Source: Pirellulales bacterium (GTDB lineage: Bacteria; Planctomycetota; Planctomycetia; Pirellulales; PALSA-1355). Taken from it: 64,000 bases of DNA. Every line of letters starts with the position of its first letter. The first letter of the stretch is position 1. The notes under the pieces were generated by a model that searched no databases, had not been told where the DNA came from, and was given only the letters and a program-made list of their open reading frames with translations. Position numbers and translations under genes: made by a program. The stretch covers positions 1-64,000 of the forward strand of contig JALHMI010000017.1 of the NCBI GenBank assembly GCA_022844125.1. Reading direction: 5' to 3'. Shown one piece after another: positions 3,001 through 21,241 of the stretch.

Positions 3001-4033
3001 CACGGTCGGCCTGCAAAACACGACGCTGGTGGTTCAGCAACTCGCCGGACAGCTGCGTTCGGGCAGTCTGGGCATCGCTGGCGCCGGCACCGCCTTTACC
3101 GAACCCGCCGCTCGTGCTTCCTCCGGACCGATCGTCCTGGTGAGCTACAACAAGGGGAGCGCGCCAGTGGTCTCATTCGTGACGGATGAAAGCTGCCAGC
3201 GCTGGAACGGCTGGACGATGGGTTACGGACTTGGCGGTAGCGCCCAGAGCGATGGCAATGCCGCGGGACTCACCTACGGCATGGGCGGAACGCTGCTGGG
3301 CCTCGACCGCACGCTCAGCGATGACGGCCGGCTCGGCTTCTTCGGCGGCTATCAAGGCACAGGCCTGCAGCTCACCGATCTCTCGCAGCGCGGCACGATC
3401 AACGGCGGGATGCTCGGCAGTTACATTTATCAGGACGACGGCTTCAACTACTACTCCGCGATCAGCGGCCTACAGTTCAATGGTTATGAAACCACGCGGC
3501 GGATCGCCTTCGACGGCATCGACCGCACGGCCCGGGGCAACTTCAGCGGCTGGCAGGGATATGGCTACCTGGAGCGCGGCGTGAACCTGCGCGGCAGCCG
3601 GACCACGCTGCAGCCGTATGCGGCGCTGCAGTACATCTACCTGCGTCAGAACAGTTACACCGAAACCGGCGCCGATACGCTCAACCTGGCCAACTCGGGC
3701 ATCGACGCCAACTCGCTCCGCAGCCTGGTGGGCAGCCGACTCCAATCAAGCTACACGACCCGCGGCGGACACCTGCTGCATCCTGAGCTGCGGGCCTTGT
3801 GGTTGCACGAATTCCTGGCGACGGACATGGTGGTAAACTCGTTCTTCGCGCCGATCGGCGGCAGCAGCTTTGCCACGGACGGGCTGAACCTGGGGCGCGA
3901 CTGGGCAATTCTCGGCGGCGGCGTGCGTTACGAACTGCCCAGCGGCTGGCAGCTGGTGGCCAACTACGACGCCCAGGTAAACACCCAGCAGGTGTTCCAC
4001 GTCGGCTCCGGAAGCCTGCAGTACGCCTGGTAG
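2..4033 (+). CDS. Autotransporter with beta-strand repeats (5' end outside window)
   Basis: The frame is already open at the window edge, so the N-terminus and signal peptide are missing. Nt 14-2317 encode twelve 64-residue units with the motif GPNSYSGGTTVSGGTLKG followed by SLQGNITNNA and GTYAGTMSGSG. These are autotransporter-associated beta-strand repeats, expected to fold as a surface-exposed right-handed beta-helix passenger. A non-repetitive passenger part follows (nt about 2318-3180). Nt about 3190-4033 fits a C-terminal autotransporter beta-barrel, with alternating Gly/aromatic strands, and the protein ends in QYAW, an aromatic terminus typical of outer-membrane proteins recognised by the BAM complex. 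It should therefore be a type V secreted outer-membrane protein, probably an adhesin or surface coat protein; the ligand cannot be told. The gene stands alone, with about 300 bases before the next gene. Confidence 0.88.
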   Translation, partial: GTGTVTLSGPNSYSGGTTVSGGTLKGTTTSLQGNITNNASVEFDQSTGGTYAGTMSGSGALVKSGTGTVTLSGPNSYSGGTTVSGGTLKGTTTSLQGNITNNASVEFDQSTGGTYAGTMSGSGALVKSGTGTVTLSGPNSYSGGTTVSGGTLKGTTTSLQGNITNNATTEFDQSTGGTYAGTMSGSGALVKSGTGAVTLTGPNSYSGGTTVSGGTLKGTTTSLQGNITNNATTEFDQSTGGTYAGTMSGSGALVKSGTGAVTLTGPNSYSGGTTVSGGTLKGTTTSLQGSITNNATTEFDQNTNGTFAGTMSGSGALVKSGTGTVTLSGPNTYSGGTTVSGGTLKGTTTSLQGNITNNATTEFDQSTGGTYAGTMSGTGGLVKNGSGTVTLDGPNSYTGGTTVNDGTLRGTTDSLQGDMTNNANVEFNQSTAGTYAGTMSGTGSLTKAGTGAVTLAGPNTYTGGTTVSGGTLKGTTTSLQGSITNNATTEFDQNTNGTFAGTMSGSGALVKSGTGTVTLSGPNTYSGGTTVSGGTLKGTTTSLQGNITNNATTEFDQSTGGTYAGTMSGTGGLVKNGSGTVTLDGPNSYTGGTTVNDGTLRGTTDSLQGDMTNNANVEFNQSTAGTYAGTMSGTGSLAKAGTGTVTLSGPNTYSGGTTVSGGTLRGTTSSLQGNITNNATTEFDQNTAGTYAGAMSGSGSFVKSGAGTVTLTGPNSYTGGTTVNNGVLQGDATSLQGGITNNAHVTFDQAADGTYVGVISGSGGLTKNGAGVLTMNGHNSYTGMTGIDAGGLIVNGSLTSDVTIASGASLDGSGDILGNVTNYGTVGTGNSIGTRTFAGTYTQQAGSILEVEISDGGTTPGVNSDLIQANSVVLNGGTVSVLAEPGNYLGGSQYRFLSSTTAIVGQFDAILIDPSAYALTLGYEYDAGLYWAYFTFDSEFDSFAQTANQLAIANYLDSISAGATGDLEVVLTGLNSLAGDPDAMRAAFDAMTDQAAPTMATVGLQNTTLVVQQLAGQLRSGSLGIAGAGTAFTEPAARASSGPIVLVSYNKGSAPVVSFVTDESCQRWNGWTMGYGLGGSAQSDGNAAGLTYGMGGTLLGLDRTLSDDGRLGFFGGYQGTGLQLTDLSQRGTINGGMLGSYIYQDDGFNYYSAISGLQFNGYETTRRIAFDGIDRTARGNFSGWQGYGYLERGVNLRGSRTTLQPYAALQYIYLRQNSYTETGADTLNLANSGIDANSLRSLVGSRLQSSYTTRGGHLLHPELRALWLHEFLATDMVVNSFFAPIGGSSFATDGLNLGRDWAILGGGVRYELPSGWQLVANYDAQVNTQQVFHVGSGSLQYAW
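14..2317 (+). repeat. Tandem array of twelve 192-bp coding repeats
   Basis: Twelve consecutive 192-bp (64-codon) units start at 14, 206, 398, 590 and so on to 2126. The first two units are identical at the DNA level and units 3-4 differ at few bases, so the array is homogenised by recent duplication or conversion and not only under protein-level selection. Divergence rises toward the barrel-proximal end (units 11-12). The array continues beyond the left window edge. Confidence 0.95.
782..1933 (+). repeat. Higher-order repeat: three-unit block (576 bp) duplicated in tandem
   Basis: Units 5-6-7 (782-1357) and 8-9-10 (1358-1933) are two almost identical 576-bp blocks. Each contains the same ordered trio: a GSITNNATTEFDQNTNG unit, a GNITNNATTEFDQSTGG unit and a GDMTNNANVEFNQSTAG unit. 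Differences seen are confined to a few bases near the start of the block and one Thr/Ala codon near its end. Confidence 0.9.
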
Positions 4034-14981: not shown

Positions 14982-15159
14982 GGCTCGCGGTTGCTCTCCC
15001 GTGTAAACCGTGGACAACGCCGTAAGAGTTGCTTCCGGGCGAAACAGCCGTCAGGAATGCAGGGCGAACTGGGCGAATTTGCACGTTGCGCGGCCCGGTA
15101 TCTATACTGGGCTGGTCAGCCAACCCCGCCTACGCTTCTCGCCCAGGAATCGCTTCCTC

Positions 15160-18150
15160 ATGTTCGGCCCCGCACGTCGACTCTCTGCCCGTACTCTGAT
15201 CGTGTGTCTGCTGTCTGCATCGCCGGCCCTAGCTCAGCTTTCGCCGGACGACGAACTCAAGACGCTGAAGGCCGCGGCGGAGATGGAAGTCTCGCTGTTT
15301 GCCAGCGAACCCTTGATCACGAATCCGGCGGCGATCGATGTCGACACGCACGGCCGAGTCTGGGTGGCCGAGATCCAGTTCTATCGCGGCGGAGCCAAAC
15401 AGCCGCCTGCCGACAAGATCAAAGTCCTGGAAGACACCGACGGGGACGGCCGCGCCGATAAGGTGACCGTGTTTGCCGAGGGACTGTTTGCCCCGATGAG
15501 CGTCTGCGTCGCCGGCAGTAAAGTGTTCGTCGCCACGAGCCCCGACCTGTGGATGTTCGAGGATAAGGACGGCGACCTGAAAGCGGACGGTCCCCCGACA
15601 AAGCTGCTCACCGGCTTTGGCGGGTACAACCACGACCACGGTGCGCACAGTATCGTACTCGGCCCCGACCACAAATGGTGGATGTCGCATGGCGACGAGG
15701 GCTTTGACGTCACCGGGACCGACGGCTCGCACATCAAGTACGAAGACGGCGCCGTGCTGCGCGGCGAGCTCGACGGCAGCCGGCTCGAAACGGTCGCGGT
15801 GAACTTTCGCAATCCGTATGAAGTTTCCGTCGATTCGTTCGGCGAAGCGTACCTGAGCGATAACGACAACGATGGCAACGAGAGCGTCCGCATCTGCTGG
15901 ATCCTCGAAGGGGGCAACTACGGCTGGTTCGGCCGACCGCCGTTCGGCAAGCAGGAACTCGACAGCCAGGTGGCGCCAGGTACGCCCTATCGTGAGGCCT
16001 GGCACTTTCGCGGTCACGTTCCCGGCTTCGTCCCCGGCACGCTGGTGACCGGTTTCGGTTCGCCGACCGGCATGTGCATTTACGAAAGCGACGCTTTCGG
16101 GCCGAAGTTCGCCAACGCACCGCTGCACACCGACTGCGGCCCGCGCGAGTGCCGCGCCTATCAGCATCGCCCGCAAGGCTATGGCATGGCGGCGACCAGC
16201 GAAGTGTTCCTCTCGAACGAAGGGGACAACTACTTCCGGCCGGACGACATTTGCGTTGCACCCAATGGGGCGCTGTACGTTTCCGATTGGTACGACGGCG
16301 GCGTCGGCGGTCATGGGTACAACAATCCCGATCAAGGTCGCATCTTCCTCTTGAAGCCGAAGGGCAAACAGCTCAAGCGTCTTGAGAAACCAGGGCCCTA
16401 CGCCACGGTTGCCGACGCGATCGAGGGGCTCAAGAGCCCGAACCTGGCCACGCAGTTTCTCGCCCGCGAGCGGCTGCTGGCCGGCGGCGCCGAAAGCGAA
16501 GCGGCGCTGGTCAAGCTGCTGGACGATGCGGAGCCGAATTACCGCGCTCGCGCGCTGTGGCTGCTCGATCGGCTAGGGGATGAGCCGCGTGGGCACGTTA
16601 TTGAACAGCTCAAGCATATGGATCCGGCGATGCGCGCCCTCGCAGTGCGGATCCTGCGTCGTCACGGCGACGAATACGGCGATAATATCCTGTCGCTAGC
16701 CGGTGATTCGTCCGACGAGGTGAAGCGCGAAGTCGTGCTGGCGATTCGCAAGGTCAAGGGTCCCACGGCGCTCGCGGTGCTGACCCAGTTGGCCGCCACG
16801 TACAACGGAGCCGATCGCTATCAGCTCGAAGTGATCAATGTCGCCGCCGAGGGTCGCAAGCAGGAATTGCTCGACAAGCTCGAAGCTGATGGTCCGCTCT
16901 CGGCGGCGCAATTCCCGCTGGTGCAAGTGCTCGCGCCCGATCGGGCAGCGGCCCTGGTGCTGGCTCGGCTGAAGGACGCTTCGATCGAAGATGCCGAGGC
17001 GCTCGCCATGATCGACGCCGCCGCACAGCTCGATTCGCTGGATGCCGGCTGGGGGCTGCTGGAAGTCGCGGCTCAGACGAATCGATCGAAGGAGGTTCGT
17101 CGCGCGGCGCTCGAGAAAGTCGTCGCGAACCTGGGACGCGGCGGCGATTGGTCCCAAATGACCGGCGAGGCGCGATTCCGCGAAAGCTTCCAGCGCCTGC
17201 TCGCCGACGAGCAGCTTCAGAACGATGCGCTCCGGGCGATCCGCGAACTGCGTTTGCGACCGCTGGGTGCCGACGTGTTGGCCTTGGCTCAAGACAATGC
17301 GAAGTCAACCGGGCTCCGCGCGACGGCAATCGCCGTTGTCGCGCGGCTGCAACCGGAGGGCGCCGTCGAAGCCCTGCGGACGATGCTCGCGGACAAGGAT
17401 CCCAAGATCGCGGCGACCGCGCTCAATGGGCTGGTCGACATGCAGGACGCGACAAGCCTCCGCACGGTACTGTCCGACGACAACTGTGCGATGGACAAGC
17501 GGCGTGGCGCCTGTGAGCGGCTGATGGACTCGACGCCCGGCGCGATCCTGCTGGTGCGGCTGCTGGAAGAGGAACGCCTGTGCGATGAACTCCGCCAGCT
17601 CGTGCTCGCCAAGGCCACGGCCCATCCCGACGCGAACGTCCGCGTGCTGTACGAAAAGTTCATTCCCGAAGACCAGCGCCCCCAGAAGCTCGGCAGCACC
17701 GTCTCGGCCGACGACATCCTTAAGCTCTCCGCCGATGCCAACCGCGGCCGCAACATCTTCTTCAAGAGCTCGGCCGCGCAGTGCAATCGCTGTCACGCCG
17801 TGCAGGGTTTCGGCAGCGATCTCGGGCCGGAGCTGTCGAACATCGGCAAGAAGTACGAGCGCGCCGCGCTGCTGGAAACGATCCTGCTCCCCTCGAAAGC
17901 CATCTCGCACGAGTACCGGCCTTACCTGCTGGAAACCACCGGCGGCCAGGTGTATGCCGGGTTCCTGGTCGAAAAGACCGACCAGCACATCGTGCTGCGC
18001 GACGTCAATCGGCAGCAAGTCCGCGTGCCGGCCGCCGAAGTCGAGGCCCTCGTCGAGCAGGAAAAGTCGCTGATGCCGGAACTCGTGCTCTCGGAAATCA
18101 CGGCCCAGGACGCTGCCGATTTGCTGGCGTTCCTGGAGTCGTGCAAGTAG
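15160..18150 (+). CDS. PVC-type secreted dehydrogenase/cytochrome c protein
   Basis: 996 residues from ATG 15160, which begins a signal peptide (RTLIVCLLSASPALAQ). Residues about 30-430 match the planctomycete membrane-bound-dehydrogenase beta-propeller domain (MEVSLFASEPLI, VWVAEIQFYRGG, KVLEDTDGDGRAD, YVSDWYDGG). A HEAT-like helical section follows (about 440-800). The C-terminal haem-binding domain contains CNRCH (C875, C878, H879), GSDLGPELSNIGKKY and the closing DLLAFLESCK. This architecture is almost confined to Planctomycetes, Verrucomicrobia and relatives and is thought to act in periplasmic oxidation of sugars or other substrates; the substrate is unknown. It is followed after ten bases by a second member of the same family. 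Confidence 0.88.
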   Translation: MFGPARRLSARTLIVCLLSASPALAQLSPDDELKTLKAAAEMEVSLFASEPLITNPAAIDVDTHGRVWVAEIQFYRGGAKQPPADKIKVLEDTDGDGRADKVTVFAEGLFAPMSVCVAGSKVFVATSPDLWMFEDKDGDLKADGPPTKLLTGFGGYNHDHGAHSIVLGPDHKWWMSHGDEGFDVTGTDGSHIKYEDGAVLRGELDGSRLETVAVNFRNPYEVSVDSFGEAYLSDNDNDGNESVRICWILEGGNYGWFGRPPFGKQELDSQVAPGTPYREAWHFRGHVPGFVPGTLVTGFGSPTGMCIYESDAFGPKFANAPLHTDCGPRECRAYQHRPQGYGMAATSEVFLSNEGDNYFRPDDICVAPNGALYVSDWYDGGVGGHGYNNPDQGRIFLLKPKGKQLKRLEKPGPYATVADAIEGLKSPNLATQFLARERLLAGGAESEAALVKLLDDAEPNYRARALWLLDRLGDEPRGHVIEQLKHMDPAMRALAVRILRRHGDEYGDNILSLAGDSSDEVKREVVLAIRKVKGPTALAVLTQLAATYNGADRYQLEVINVAAEGRKQELLDKLEADGPLSAAQFPLVQVLAPDRAAALVLARLKDASIEDAEALAMIDAAAQLDSLDAGWGLLEVAAQTNRSKEVRRAALEKVVANLGRGGDWSQMTGEARFRESFQRLLADEQLQNDALRAIRELRLRPLGADVLALAQDNAKSTGLRATAIAVVARLQPEGAVEALRTMLADKDPKIAATALNGLVDMQDATSLRTVLSDDNCAMDKRRGACERLMDSTPGAILLVRLLEEERLCDELRQLVLAKATAHPDANVRVLYEKFIPEDQRPQKLGSTVSADDILKLSADANRGRNIFFKSSAAQCNRCHAVQGFGSDLGPELSNIGKKYERAALLETILLPSKAISHEYRPYLLETTGGQVYAGFLVEKTDQHIVLRDVNRQQVRVPAAEVEALVEQEKSLMPELVLSEITAQDAADLLAFLESCK

Positions 18151-18160
18151 TTGATTGGGA

Positions 18161-21100
18161 ATGATGCCGGAAAGACTAACCGCAGAGGACGCAGAGGTGC
18201 GCAGAGAAGGAGACGAGTATCTTGGTTTCTTCCCCTCCGCGTCCCTCTGCGTCCTCTGCGGTAAGTCTCTTTGCTTTCTAGTTGTCTGGTGTGCGATCGC
18301 TTCGCTCGCGGGCGCTCAGGCGCTTACGCCGGACGAAGCCCAAAAGCGATTCAAGCTGGCCGAAGGATTTGCGATCGAGCTATTCGCCAGTGAGCCCATG
18401 GTCCGCCAGCCGGTGGCGATGACGTTCGACGACCGCGGCCGGTTGTGGGTCGTTCAGTACCTGCAGTATCCGAATCCCGCAGGCCTCAAGCCGGTCGAGG
18501 TCGATCGCTACCTGCGTACGAAGTACGACCGTGTGCCCGAGCCGCCGCCGCATGGCCCGGTGGGCGTCGATAAGATCACGATCCTGGAAGACACCGACGG
18601 CGACGGCCGCGCCGATAAGAGCAAAGACTTCGTCACCGGGCTGAACCTCGCCTCGGCGATCGCACTCGGCGACGGCGGTGTCTACGTCGGACAAGCCCCG
18701 TATCTGCTTTTCTATCCTGACAAGAACGGCGACGATGTTCCCGATGGCGAACCCGAGGTATTGCTGAAGGGCTTTGGCCTGGAAGACGCCCACGCCGTGG
18801 TGAATTCGCTGGAGTGGGGCCCCGATGGCTGGCTGTACGGCGCGCAAGGGAGCACCGTGACGGCCGACATTCGCGGCATCGGCTTCCAGCAGGGCCTGTG
18901 GCGCTACCATCCCGCCACGAAACGCTTCGAGCTGTTCAGCGAGGGAGGCGGCAACACGTTCGGACTCGACTTCGATCGGCATGGGAATGCCATCGCCTGC
19001 ACGAACTACGGCAACGTCGTCTGCCTGCACCAGGTGCAAGGTGCGTATTACGTCAAAGGCTTCACCAAGCACGGCCCGCTGCACAACCCATACACGTACG
19101 GCTACTTCGAGCACGTCGCCCACACCGGTCACGCCGGCGGACACGTTACCTGCGGCGGCATTGTGTACCAAGGCGGCGCGTGGCCCGAAGAGTACGAGAA
19201 CACGTACCTCGGCGCGAACCTGCTCTCGAACGCAATCTACTCAAGCAAGCTGACGCCGCACGGCTCGACGTTCACCAGCCAGTATCGAGGCACGCTGCTC
19301 GAGACCGACGACATCTGGTTCCGCCCGATCGATTGCCTCACCGGCCCGGACGGCTCGGTGTACGTGACCGATTGGTACGACAAGCGGGCGAATCACGTGA
19401 TTCCCGAGGACACCTGGGACAAAACGAACGGCCGGATCTGGCGAATCGTGTATCGCGGCGCGGAGGACACAACGCCGGTGCGAAAGCTGGAGCCGATCGA
19501 TCTAGCCGACAAGACGAGCTTTGGCCTGGTCGATTTGTTGGCCCACGACAACGCCTGGTGGCGGCGAAAGGCGCGCAAGCTGCTGGCCGAGCGGCGCGAC
19601 GCGGAAGTTATTCCAATGCTGCACAAGCTGATCGCCGGCAGCGATGAGCGGCTGGCACTCGAAGCCACTTGGGCGCTCTATGTATGTGGCGGCTGGAGCG
19701 ACCCGGTCGCGCTGCGCCTGCTCGATCATCCGAGCGCCGATGTACGCACCTGGACGGTGCGACTGGTTGGCGATGATGCTCGCCCGCTACCGGACAAGCT
19801 GCGGGCGAAGTTTGTCGCACTGGCCGAAAGTGATCCGAGCCCCTCCGTTCGCAGTCAGCTCGCCTGCACGGCGAAGCGCTTGCCGGCGGCAGACGGCCTG
19901 GCCATTGTCGCGGCCTTGATGAAGCGCAGCGAGGACGCCGGAGATACGCATCTGCCGCTGCTGCTCTGGTGGGCGATCGAACCGAAAGCGACGAGCGATC
20001 CGCAACCCGTGCTCGCGCTGTTCGAAAAACCCGAAACATGGCAACTGCCGATCGTGCGCGACGTGCTCGTGGAGAGAGTCACCCGTCGATACCTGGCCGA
20101 GAGGAACGACGCCGGCTATGCGGCCTGCGCGCGAATGCTCGCCCTTGCTCCCAGCGACGAGGCGCGATTAAAGCTGGTCGCGGCGATGGAAAGCGATCTC
20201 TCAGGCCGGCCGCTGGCGGAGGTTCCTGCGCCGCTCTCCGATCGGCTCGCCGCACTCTGGCAGAACCACGCCGCCGATCCGACCGTTACCCGCTTCGCCC
20301 TGAAGCTCGGTCATCCGGCCGCTTACGAAAGTGCCCGCCAGCGGATGCGCAACGCGAACGAACCCGAAGCGGTGCGGCTGTCACTGGTGTCGGCCGTCGC
20401 CCAGGCCGCGCGGCCGGACGATCTGCCGCTGCTGCTGGAACTCGTCGATGCGCAGGCCTCCGGCGAGTCGATTCGCGGCGCGGCACTCAGCGGTTTGGCC
20501 CACTACGATGGCGCCACGATTGGCAGTGCACTGCTCGCGCGCTACCCTGCCCTGCCGCCGGCGCTCAAGCCGCGGGCGATCGCCCTGCTAACGACGCGCG
20601 CGGGCTGGGCCGAGAAGCTTGTGGAAGGCGTCGCGGCTGAGAAGATCGCCGCGCAGGACGTTTCGGTCGACCAGGTTCGCGCGATGCTCGCCGTGGCCGA
20701 TGACGAACTGAAGCAGGCGATCGAATCCCGCTGGGGAAAGATTCGCGCGGCGACGCCGGGCGAGAAGATGTCCTACGTTCCGGTGCTGGGCCGCGTGCTG
20801 AATGCTGCTCCCGGCGAGCTGGCCAGCGGTCACAAGCTGTACATGAAACACTGCGGCGTCTGCCACACGCTGCACGGCGAAGGCCAGAAGATCGGCCCCG
20901 ACCTGACCAGCGCCGATCGCAAGAACCGCGAATCGCTGCTGCTCAACATTCTCGACCCGAGCGGCACGATCCGCCCTGAGTTCATTTCGCAAACGGCCGT
21001 GCTCGTCGATGGCCGCGTGCTCACTGGGCTGGTCACCGAATCCGACGCGGCGCGGCTCACGATTGTCGACGCCAAGCAACAGAGGACGGTGGTCGAGCGC

Positions 21101-21241
21101 TCGGAGATCGAACAACTTGAACCGTCGCCGCTGTCGCTGATGCCCGAGGGCCTGCTTCAGCAGCTCAGCGAGCAGGAGGTTCGCGATCTGTTCCGGTACT
21201 TGCAGAGCGACGGGGCTCCGACGACCTCAGCGGCACGCTAG
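18161..21241 (+). CDS. PVC-type secreted dehydrogenase/cytochrome c protein, with repeat-derived leader
   Basis: 1,026 residues from ATG 18161; a TTG at 18155 is in the same frame. The body parallels its upstream neighbour: propeller-like dehydrogenase domain (FAIELFASEPMV, LWVVQYLQYP, ITILEDTDGDGRAD, YVTDWYDKRAN), HEAT-like repeats, and a haem domain with CGVCH (C898, C901, H902), KIGPDLTSADRKN and a terminal RDLFRYLQSDG. The first 40 or so codons read through a dispersed inverted repeat (RLTAEDAEVRREG and SASLCVLCGKS), and only then comes the hydrophobic export segment (LCFLVVWCAIASLAGAQA). The true start may therefore be near this segment, or the repeat has been recruited as leader. It lies ten bases downstream of its paralogue, so co-transcription is likely. 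Confidence 0.83.
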   Translation: MMPERLTAEDAEVRREGDEYLGFFPSASLCVLCGKSLCFLVVWCAIASLAGAQALTPDEAQKRFKLAEGFAIELFASEPMVRQPVAMTFDDRGRLWVVQYLQYPNPAGLKPVEVDRYLRTKYDRVPEPPPHGPVGVDKITILEDTDGDGRADKSKDFVTGLNLASAIALGDGGVYVGQAPYLLFYPDKNGDDVPDGEPEVLLKGFGLEDAHAVVNSLEWGPDGWLYGAQGSTVTADIRGIGFQQGLWRYHPATKRFELFSEGGGNTFGLDFDRHGNAIACTNYGNVVCLHQVQGAYYVKGFTKHGPLHNPYTYGYFEHVAHTGHAGGHVTCGGIVYQGGAWPEEYENTYLGANLLSNAIYSSKLTPHGSTFTSQYRGTLLETDDIWFRPIDCLTGPDGSVYVTDWYDKRANHVIPEDTWDKTNGRIWRIVYRGAEDTTPVRKLEPIDLADKTSFGLVDLLAHDNAWWRRKARKLLAERRDAEVIPMLHKLIAGSDERLALEATWALYVCGGWSDPVALRLLDHPSADVRTWTVRLVGDDARPLPDKLRAKFVALAESDPSPSVRSQLACTAKRLPAADGLAIVAALMKRSEDAGDTHLPLLLWWAIEPKATSDPQPVLALFEKPETWQLPIVRDVLVERVTRRYLAERNDAGYAACARMLALAPSDEARLKLVAAMESDLSGRPLAEVPAPLSDRLAALWQNHAADPTVTRFALKLGHPAAYESARQRMRNANEPEAVRLSLVSAVAQAARPDDLPLLLELVDAQASGESIRGAALSGLAHYDGATIGSALLARYPALPPALKPRAIALLTTRAGWAEKLVEGVAAEKIAAQDVSVDQVRAMLAVADDELKQAIESRWGKIRAATPGEKMSYVPVLGRVLNAAPGELASGHKLYMKHCGVCHTLHGEGQKIGPDLTSADRKNRESLLLNILDPSGTIRPEFISQTAVLVDGRVLTGLVTESDAARLTIVDAKQQRTVVERSEIEQLEPSPLSLMPEGLLQQLSEQEVRDLFRYLQSDGAPTTSAAR
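18176..18267. repeat. Dispersed inverted repeat inside the leader of a cytochrome gene
   Basis: Perfect 18-bp arms CCGCAGAGGACGCAGAGG (18180-18197) and its complement (18244-18261) are separated by 46 bases, with weaker pairing extending on both sides. From general knowledge, this CCGCAGAGG-type palindrome resembles an intergenic repeat found in many copies in varied bacterial genomes. Here it lies within the open frame of the downstream gene. Confidence 0.8.

Follow-up and report, generated by a model that had tools for sequence, protein, structure and literature searches.

What does a palindrome become when it lies inside an open reading frame (ORF), between two adjacent and co-oriented genes for paralogous DUF7133-HEAT-cytochrome c proteins, and to what kind of element does it belong? 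This question is raised by a locus of a Pirellulales bacterium (NCBI GenBank assembly GCA_022844125.1, contig JALHMI010000017.1, positions 1 to 64,000), and we refer to the whole stretch of 64,000 nucleotides (nt) that was analysed as the window. Judged from its letters, the palindrome is probably a gene-less copy, similar to a miniature inverted-repeat transposable element (MITE), of a dispersed hairpin element that has been captured in frame, and it is best read as now forming the n-region of a putative signal peptide in the downstream protein. That the copy belongs to the class of elements described below and has also been captured is, taken jointly, very likely. The features on which the argument depends are as follows.

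15010 to 18150, + strand: upstream paralogue, a DUF7133-HEAT-cytochrome c protein (ORF list; Pfam PF23500, HEAT_2, Cytochrom_C)
18155 to 21241, + strand: downstream DUF7133-HEAT-cytochrome c ORF, with its frame open across the entire palindrome (ORF list, Pfam)
18173 to 18213, + strand: left arm, with the unit CGCAGAG at 18181-18187, 18190-18196 and 18200-18206 and the spacers GA and GTG
18214 to 18227, no strand: inter-arm stretch of 14 nt without a gene; a GxxExxY ORF occupies the equivalent place in gene-bearing relatives
18228 to 18268, - strand: right arm, with the reverse-complement units CGCAGAG at 18254-18260, CGCAGAG at 18245-18251 and CGCGGAG at 18235-18241
18269 to 18322, + strand: hydrophobic export segment LCFLVVWCAIASLAGAQA, immediately 3' of the right arm (signal-peptide reading by eye)

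The inverted repeat of 18173-18268 consists of two 41-nt arms that are 83% complementary and 14 nt apart, and the stop codon of the upstream paralogue (18148-18150) lies 22 nt 5' of the left arm. Read on its own strand, each arm holds three units in nearly the same order, CGCAGAG-GA-CGCAGAG-GTG-CGCAGAG on the left and CGCAGAG-GA-CGCAGAG-GGA-CGCGGAG on the right, and within the window CCGCAGAGGACGCAGAG is found in these two arms only, even when up to 3 mismatches are allowed. The preliminary description of this DNA had proposed a hairpin in the mRNA near the start of the downstream gene, and such a hairpin is present in the predicted RNA fold of 18150-18330 (-91.5 kcal/mol, z -5.96), which none of 200 shuffles matched. 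The predicted DNA fold of 18165-18275 (z -6.87) was likewise matched by 0 of 200.

Whether the repeat is translated can be addressed from the start codons of the ORF at 18155-21241. Up to 18420, ATG, GTG or TTG codons occur in frame at 18155, 18161, 18164, 18197, 18398, 18413 and 18419. Four of these are 5' of the right arm (TTG 18155, ATG 18161, ATG 18164 and GTG 18197), and the codons at 18398, 18413 and 18419 all fall within the conserved region of the protein. From the right arm to the conserved domain, before 18398, there is no ATG, GTG or TTG in frame, and initiation at a usual codon therefore carries translation through the right arm; initiation downstream of the palindrome would need a non-standard codon. 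In the + frame the right arm reads ..FPSASLCVLCGKS, and the translated part includes ..SASLCVLCGKS. The start codon list agrees with the earlier placement of the palindrome in the open frame between the first ATG and the hydrophobic segment, and of the two options then offered, a misplaced N-terminus or a repeat captured as coding sequence, it favours capture. A downstream in-frame start, which would have left the repeat untranslated, is excluded by the sequence for ATG, GTG and TTG. The export segment itself is probably ancestral, since it is not part of the repeat and an alignment by eye with the corresponding segment of an orthologue (L052) is possible. From its signal peptide, as read by eye, the protein is probably exported.

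The same orthologue proved informative in a second way. L052 belongs to a genome of the same family (G001) and is 68% identical to the window protein. On the reverse complement, just before the start of the match, a different palindrome, CCCTCTCCC..GGGAGAGGG, precedes the hydrophobic segment at the same place; its translation is NPLPSGEGRVRALY..LTPSPRPSPKGSGG, and the next GTG and TTG lie inside the hydrophobic segment. This palindrome is also dispersed, with 95 sites in G001, 3 in G003, 1 in G000 (the source genome of the window) and 0 in G002, each site being counted once per strand, and reversed-pattern controls gave 0. Because the two palindromes differ and stand at the same place, the leader of this probably exported protein has accepted two unrelated repeats, and the capture in L052 is independent of that in the window. 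A comparison of leaders among homologues had been proposed in the preliminary description: L052 carries its own palindrome, and in the orthologues L053 and L054 no such repeat was seen by eye at the leader position.

The window palindrome is one of many in its genome. A blastn search with the 106-nt element (18168-18273) gave 61 matches at E <= 0.01 on 27 contigs, many palindromic sites appearing once per strand, and this count, similar to one proposed earlier, establishes the family as dispersed. The strict pattern ACCRCRGAG-N1-3-CRCRGAG-N1-3-CRCRGAG has 38 matches in the genome and its reversed form has 0. From 20 regions plus the window, 28 sites were studied. The window copy is the shortest of them, and at 17 other sites a convergent arm pair is 168-605 nt apart. 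Its ends are ACTAACCGC / GCGGTAAGT; those of other copies are mostly TTAACC/GGTTAA. In being small, multicopy and bounded by terminal inverted repeats, the window palindrome resembles MITEs. Nested within many of the sites is a second, inner palindrome made of other units (AACCACAGATGAACACAGAT..). Repeats of this inner arm were also seen near contig ends (G000 C3:93-107, C13:93-107 and C11:194-208) and may break the assembly.

Copies in the source genome are mostly intergenic. By longest-ORF calls the 28 sites lie between 16 tandem, 10 convergent and 2 divergent gene pairs, or 12, 8 and 1, respectively (n=21), once seven sites resting on ORFs without a Pfam match are removed, and 12 of 17 left-hand + strand ORFs stop 5-53 nt ahead of the first unit. 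Nine other long ORFs run into elements of this genome. Seven of them lack any Pfam match and could be spurious, and the domain-bearing ones, a sulfatase at L049 and a PQQ protein at L047, do not require a start before or inside the element, so that of the 28 sites only the window copy is supported as a coding capture. For the window copy, no empty site close enough was found: the nearest orthologues are 67-68% identical, and a target-site duplication is therefore unreadable.

Gene-bearing relatives of the palindrome connect it to the GxxExxY proteins, a little-studied family defined as PF13366 (PDDEXK_3) and TIGR04256. We define the class by inverted arms of two to three CRCNRAG-like 7-nt units with spacers of 1-4 nt, usually pointing inward, which in gene-bearing members enclose a GxxExxY gene of PD-(D/E)XK-like type. 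The window arms are convergent and have three units each; with 14 nt between them and no GxxExxY gene, the window copy is a gene-less relative only. Six PF13366 matches in the source genome represent five GxxExxY loci, three of which are enclosed by arms. The GxxExxY gene inside the element C25:20414-20918 is broken (two pieces, one TGA), and the 34-nt arm of this element is matched by the window copy at 88% on one strand and 85% on the other. Outer arms of the 28 sites match the C25 arm at 26 sites on at least one strand and at 16 on both, partly by construction, as the sites were chosen with the window arm and C25 itself is among them. For the inner nested arms the counterpart is the arm of a different GxxExxY locus, L092, which they match at >=75% (on one strand or both at 17 of 28 sites, on both at 12 of 28; 12 of 22 once six sites with extents set by inner-arm hits are excluded). 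The arm of a third locus, L091, matches 0 of 28 sites, and controls shifted by 600 nt gave 0 of 28 for every arm compared. The two nested hairpin layers therefore correspond to two GxxExxY loci of the genome, C25 and L092. Separately, one site of this genome, in L041 near 3520-3707, matches the arm ACCACAACGACACAACGACACGACG beside GxxExxY locus L096 at 92% on both strands.

In the GxxExxY alignment D63, K75, Q87 and Y91 are invariant and E73 is nearly so, which fits a PD-(D/E)XK core; the pattern D...ExK...QxxxY is one that we take to be the PD-(D/E)XK motif. A search of PDB sequences with this alignment gave no match at E <= 1. The structure model has a pLDDT of 94, and when Foldseek candidates were compared with it by VIA-align 2, SSO0001, a Cas4 protein, ranked first (Z 8.8, root-mean-square deviation (rmsd) 3.8, 96 aligned), and the archaeal Holliday-junction resolvase Hjc gave Z 6.5 (rmsd 3.2, 83 aligned). 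The comparison of predicted structures modestly supports a PD-(D/E)XK-like fold.

The association between this gene and palindromic arms extends well beyond the source genome. PF13366 is present in 68 of 149 genomes of the phylum (E <= 1e-15), and when one GxxExxY locus was taken from each of 30 genomes, the highest-scoring inverted repeat spanning the gene reached >=40 in 21 cases, against 3 of 120 for mismatched flanks and 0 of 54 for shifted windows. When the best 80 of at least 580 relatives in the GTDB set were used, 48 of 76 scorable loci reached >=35, compared with 17 of 229 among the mismatched controls and 1 of 133 among the shifted ones; loci with a flank <60 nt were excluded (4 of 80 here and 4 of 110 in the grammar test below), and the mismatched control is raised because different organisms have similar arms. 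Loci scoring >=35 span 12 phyla, counted by eye from record titles. The arm grammar, written as C[AG]CN[ACG]A[GT] with 1-4 nt spacers within 300 nt of the gene, gave at least two inward units on both sides at 81 of 106 loci, against 0/95, 0/95, 0/96 and 0/98 in shifted controls, and at least three at 47 of 106, against 0. GxxExxY was also found in 35 of 42 strict-arm genomes and in 33 of 107 genomes without a strict arm (Fisher p 5e-9). The elements L276 and L285 (G176, G177) carry quite different arm units, of ACAGGAT type, around their GxxExxY genes. Spread by phages or plasmids was rejected, as, for one GxxExxY protein, matching records numbered 0 of 50,697 from phages and 8 of 72,556 from plasmids, and the alignment matched 7 loci in IMG/VR.

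Gene-bearing elements tend to lie in sense orientation at gene junctions. Relative to GxxExxY, the flanking longest ORFs were (+,+) at 59 of 85 loci, (-,-) at 6 and mixed at 20, a further 25 of 110 loci having no called ORF on one side. Elements stand beside core genes, as in fabD-[element]-fabG of Sphingomonas and radA-[element] of Bacteroides, and by eye also in trpE-[element]-trpG, groEL-[element]-dnaJ, sucA-[element]-sucB and serC-[element]-serA. Among seven species of one genus the groEL-dnaJ junction is filled in 2, empty in 3 and holds other inserts in 2. These other inserts, L245 (G205) and L247 (G204), may mark the junction as a hot spot. Five junctions of G142 were compared with two sister species, where 7 of 8 comparable sites were empty and 1 held a decayed GxxExxY gene (2 of 10 site-by-species pairs had no match). 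Most of the eight G142 elements have private arm units, left matching right, and two gave weak inverted repeats only; because the units differ between elements, these are not recent copies of one another. The preliminary description had called the window repeat mobile. Its support is indirect, coming from the many copies and from orthologous junctions of other genomes, at which gene-bearing relatives are present in some and absent in others.

Other explanations were considered for both the coding status and the origin of the repeat. The frame across it could be accidental, the true protein beginning at a non-standard codon (e.g. ATC or CTA) 3' of the right arm. The n-region MPERLTAEDAEVRREGDEYLG is acidic, which is atypical for a signal peptide, and other copies in the genome precede genes that start after the element, such as the sulfatase ORF at L049. 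We nevertheless regard this as quite improbable, given the absence of ATG, GTG and TTG from the right arm to 18398, inside the conserved region, and given that L052 is in the same situation with another palindrome, apart from the GTG and TTG within its hydrophobic segment. Similarly improbable is an origin as a REP/REPIN-type palindrome spread by RAYT, a Y1 tyrosine transposase. Dispersed palindromes with many gene-less, non-autonomous copies are REP-like traits, as is a resident nuclease-type gene within the same arms, and the genome has ten Y1_Tnp matches; however, the best repeats flanking the ten Y1 genes are of other sequence (e.g. L086, L087, L089) or weak (L082), the CRCNRAG grammar is found at 0 of 10 of these loci within 600-nt flanks, and an RAYT origin is disfavoured on these grounds. 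Large REP superfamilies are defined, according to an excerpt of PMC3733652, by a GTAG or CGTC tag at one palindrome end. The arms described here end in ..TTAACC/GGTTAA.., not in GTAG or CGTC, and their partner is PD-(D/E)XK-like instead of a Y1 tyrosine transposase. As a separate observation, several of the RAYT-like Y1_Tnp genes (L081-L090) have private flanking palindromes, for example L086, L087 and L089.

Two further alternatives place the function of the hairpins in RNA. They could be cellular devices that lie at gene ends and terminate transcription, stabilise 3' ends or serve as sites for RNase III, the GxxExxY genes being passengers. In favour of this, the prediction gives a very stable stem, divergent pairs are avoided (2 of 28 sites, or 1 of 21 after dropping those with Pfam-less ORFs), 12 of 17 left-hand ORFs end just before the first unit, and the sense bias of GxxExxY elements would also fit a transcription-dependent function. 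We consider this unlikely, since strict-arm copies vary from 0 to 420 per genome within one phylum and junctions that hold gene-bearing elements have empty orthologues in sister species. An intrinsic terminator (a G+C stem followed by a T run) was not supported, a consensus scan giving 0 hits on the + strand and one 5-pair stem on the - strand, at shuffle level; Rfam gave 0 matches at gathering score in 20 sources (126,391 bases). The strongest rival on mechanism is an RNA-level life like that of the intervening sequences (IVS) of 23S rRNA, in which RNase III would process a transcribed stem-loop form of the element, whose loop carries a small ORF, and the element would move or persist as that RNA. 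An excerpt of PMC4990558 describes the Coxiella IVS as 428-444 nt long, closed by a terminal stem of 28 bp and bearing an S23 ORF in its loop, cleaved by RNase III in vitro and of proposed but unproven mobility. The anatomy is alike in so far as that source describes it, a small ORF lying between terminal inverted repeats, which pair into a long stem in RNA. Most GxxExxY elements have the same sense as both neighbours, and in the phylum genes of the four-helix-bundle family PF05635 also lie in inverted arms (18 of 30 scoring >=40, against 1/120 mismatched and 1/58 shifted). Against it, the elements in the cases read lie between protein genes, outside rRNA, as does the window copy; they also differ in their GxxExxY ORF, their arms of tandem 7-nt units and their many gene-less copies, and the rival, too, is rated as not likely. 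PF05635 has no match in G000, so that four-helix-bundle drivers were rejected there, although control genomes likewise had none and the absence is unproven. At L127-L156 the arms around 23S_rRNA_IVP/four-helix-bundle (PF05635) genes consist of other 7-8 nt units, e.g. AGTGGTTAGTG and TAGTTGTTAG.

If the palindrome is a captured gene-less element, a copy would have entered the small space that separates the two paralogues, and its insertion would have removed or displaced the old start of the downstream gene. It may have survived because both arms are open in frame and the hydrophobic segment could still work as a signal peptide with a repeat-encoded n-region. More weakly, the arms, extruded as a cruciform or present as a single-stranded hairpin, might be the substrate of the GxxExxY protein; this protein, predicted to have a fold like those of Cas4 and Holliday-junction resolvases, might also spread gene-less copies in trans. 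Movement driven by the GxxExxY nuclease is proposed tentatively. With similar reserve it is suggested that GxxExxY proteins could be the nucleases of undescribed, very widespread mobile hairpin elements, acting as minimal PD-(D/E)XK enzymes on arms that they recognise by a cruciform or hairpin form; the elements would insert in sense orientation at operon junctions and give rise to swarms of nested gene-less copies, with the S23/IVS elements as a sister class.

Several observations weigh against this wider proposal. In the source genome an active driver is not evident, because the gene in C25, whose arms match the dispersed outer arms, is broken, and arms do not enclose the GxxExxY loci L094 and L096; in the 30-locus test they are also missing around L121 and L126. 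The expression for the grammar was composed after inspection of the same loci, 25 of 106 of which are without two-sided two-unit inward arms, and 13 of 106 gave two-unit outward matches on both sides. Seven of the 42 strict-arm genomes have no GxxExxY at E <= 1e-15, including G107 (77 copies) and G095 (39 copies). In favour of the proposal, the distances between arms covary with those between proteins (Mantel r 0.31, 0 of 2000 permutations; 77 of 110 loci with score >=30 and arm <70 nt), although taxonomy confounds the test and co-inheritance alone could produce the same result. Chains with a nuclease fold head the structure lists, yet the Foldseek E-values are all >0.08, and VIA-align 2 gave one row only with Z >=8 and many unlike proteins at Z 5-7. 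Gene calls for orientation and siting are longest ORFs, and of nine such ORFs that were checked, seven are without a Pfam match. The element starts right after the upstream stop codon at L271 and L272 and replaces a short spacer instead of splitting it, so that a duplication is unreadable, and at the groEL-dnaJ and G142 junctions no target-site duplication was resolved, the intergenic sequence being too diverged.

In-frame capture of hairpin repeats is already known. Excerpts of PMC2229807 report in-frame fusions of such repeats and a signal peptide, that of YPO1552, formed in part by a MITE, and the Rickettsia RPE, Yersinia YPAL and ERIC repeats resemble the present case, as far as that source goes, in being small hairpin repeats fused in frame to proteins. 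The window is a new example, strengthened by the independent capture in L052, and it differs from them in belonging to another sequence family and in supplying the n-region ahead of an existing hydrophobic segment. In open-licence PubMed Central (PMC) papers CGCAGAGGACGCAGAG was not found and six unit strings occurred only in papers on other subjects; an association of GxxExxY genes with a palindromic arm grammar was not found there either, a weak absence.

Together the results suggest that a class of small hairpin elements, probably mobile, has been overlooked. The GxxExxY family, named in public databases by its motif alone, appears to be housed in a defined palindromic element across many phyla, and the association gives these proteins a testable function and accounts for dispersed hairpins whose unit strings were found in no bacterial paper among the open-licence PMC papers searched. 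If the wider proposal is true, the window shows a gene-less copy being built into an export signal, and a sister class of S23/IVS elements with other arm units would explain the origin of rRNA intervening sequences. GxxExxY elements would then offer an experimental handle on how these sequences and similar hairpin elements arise and move.

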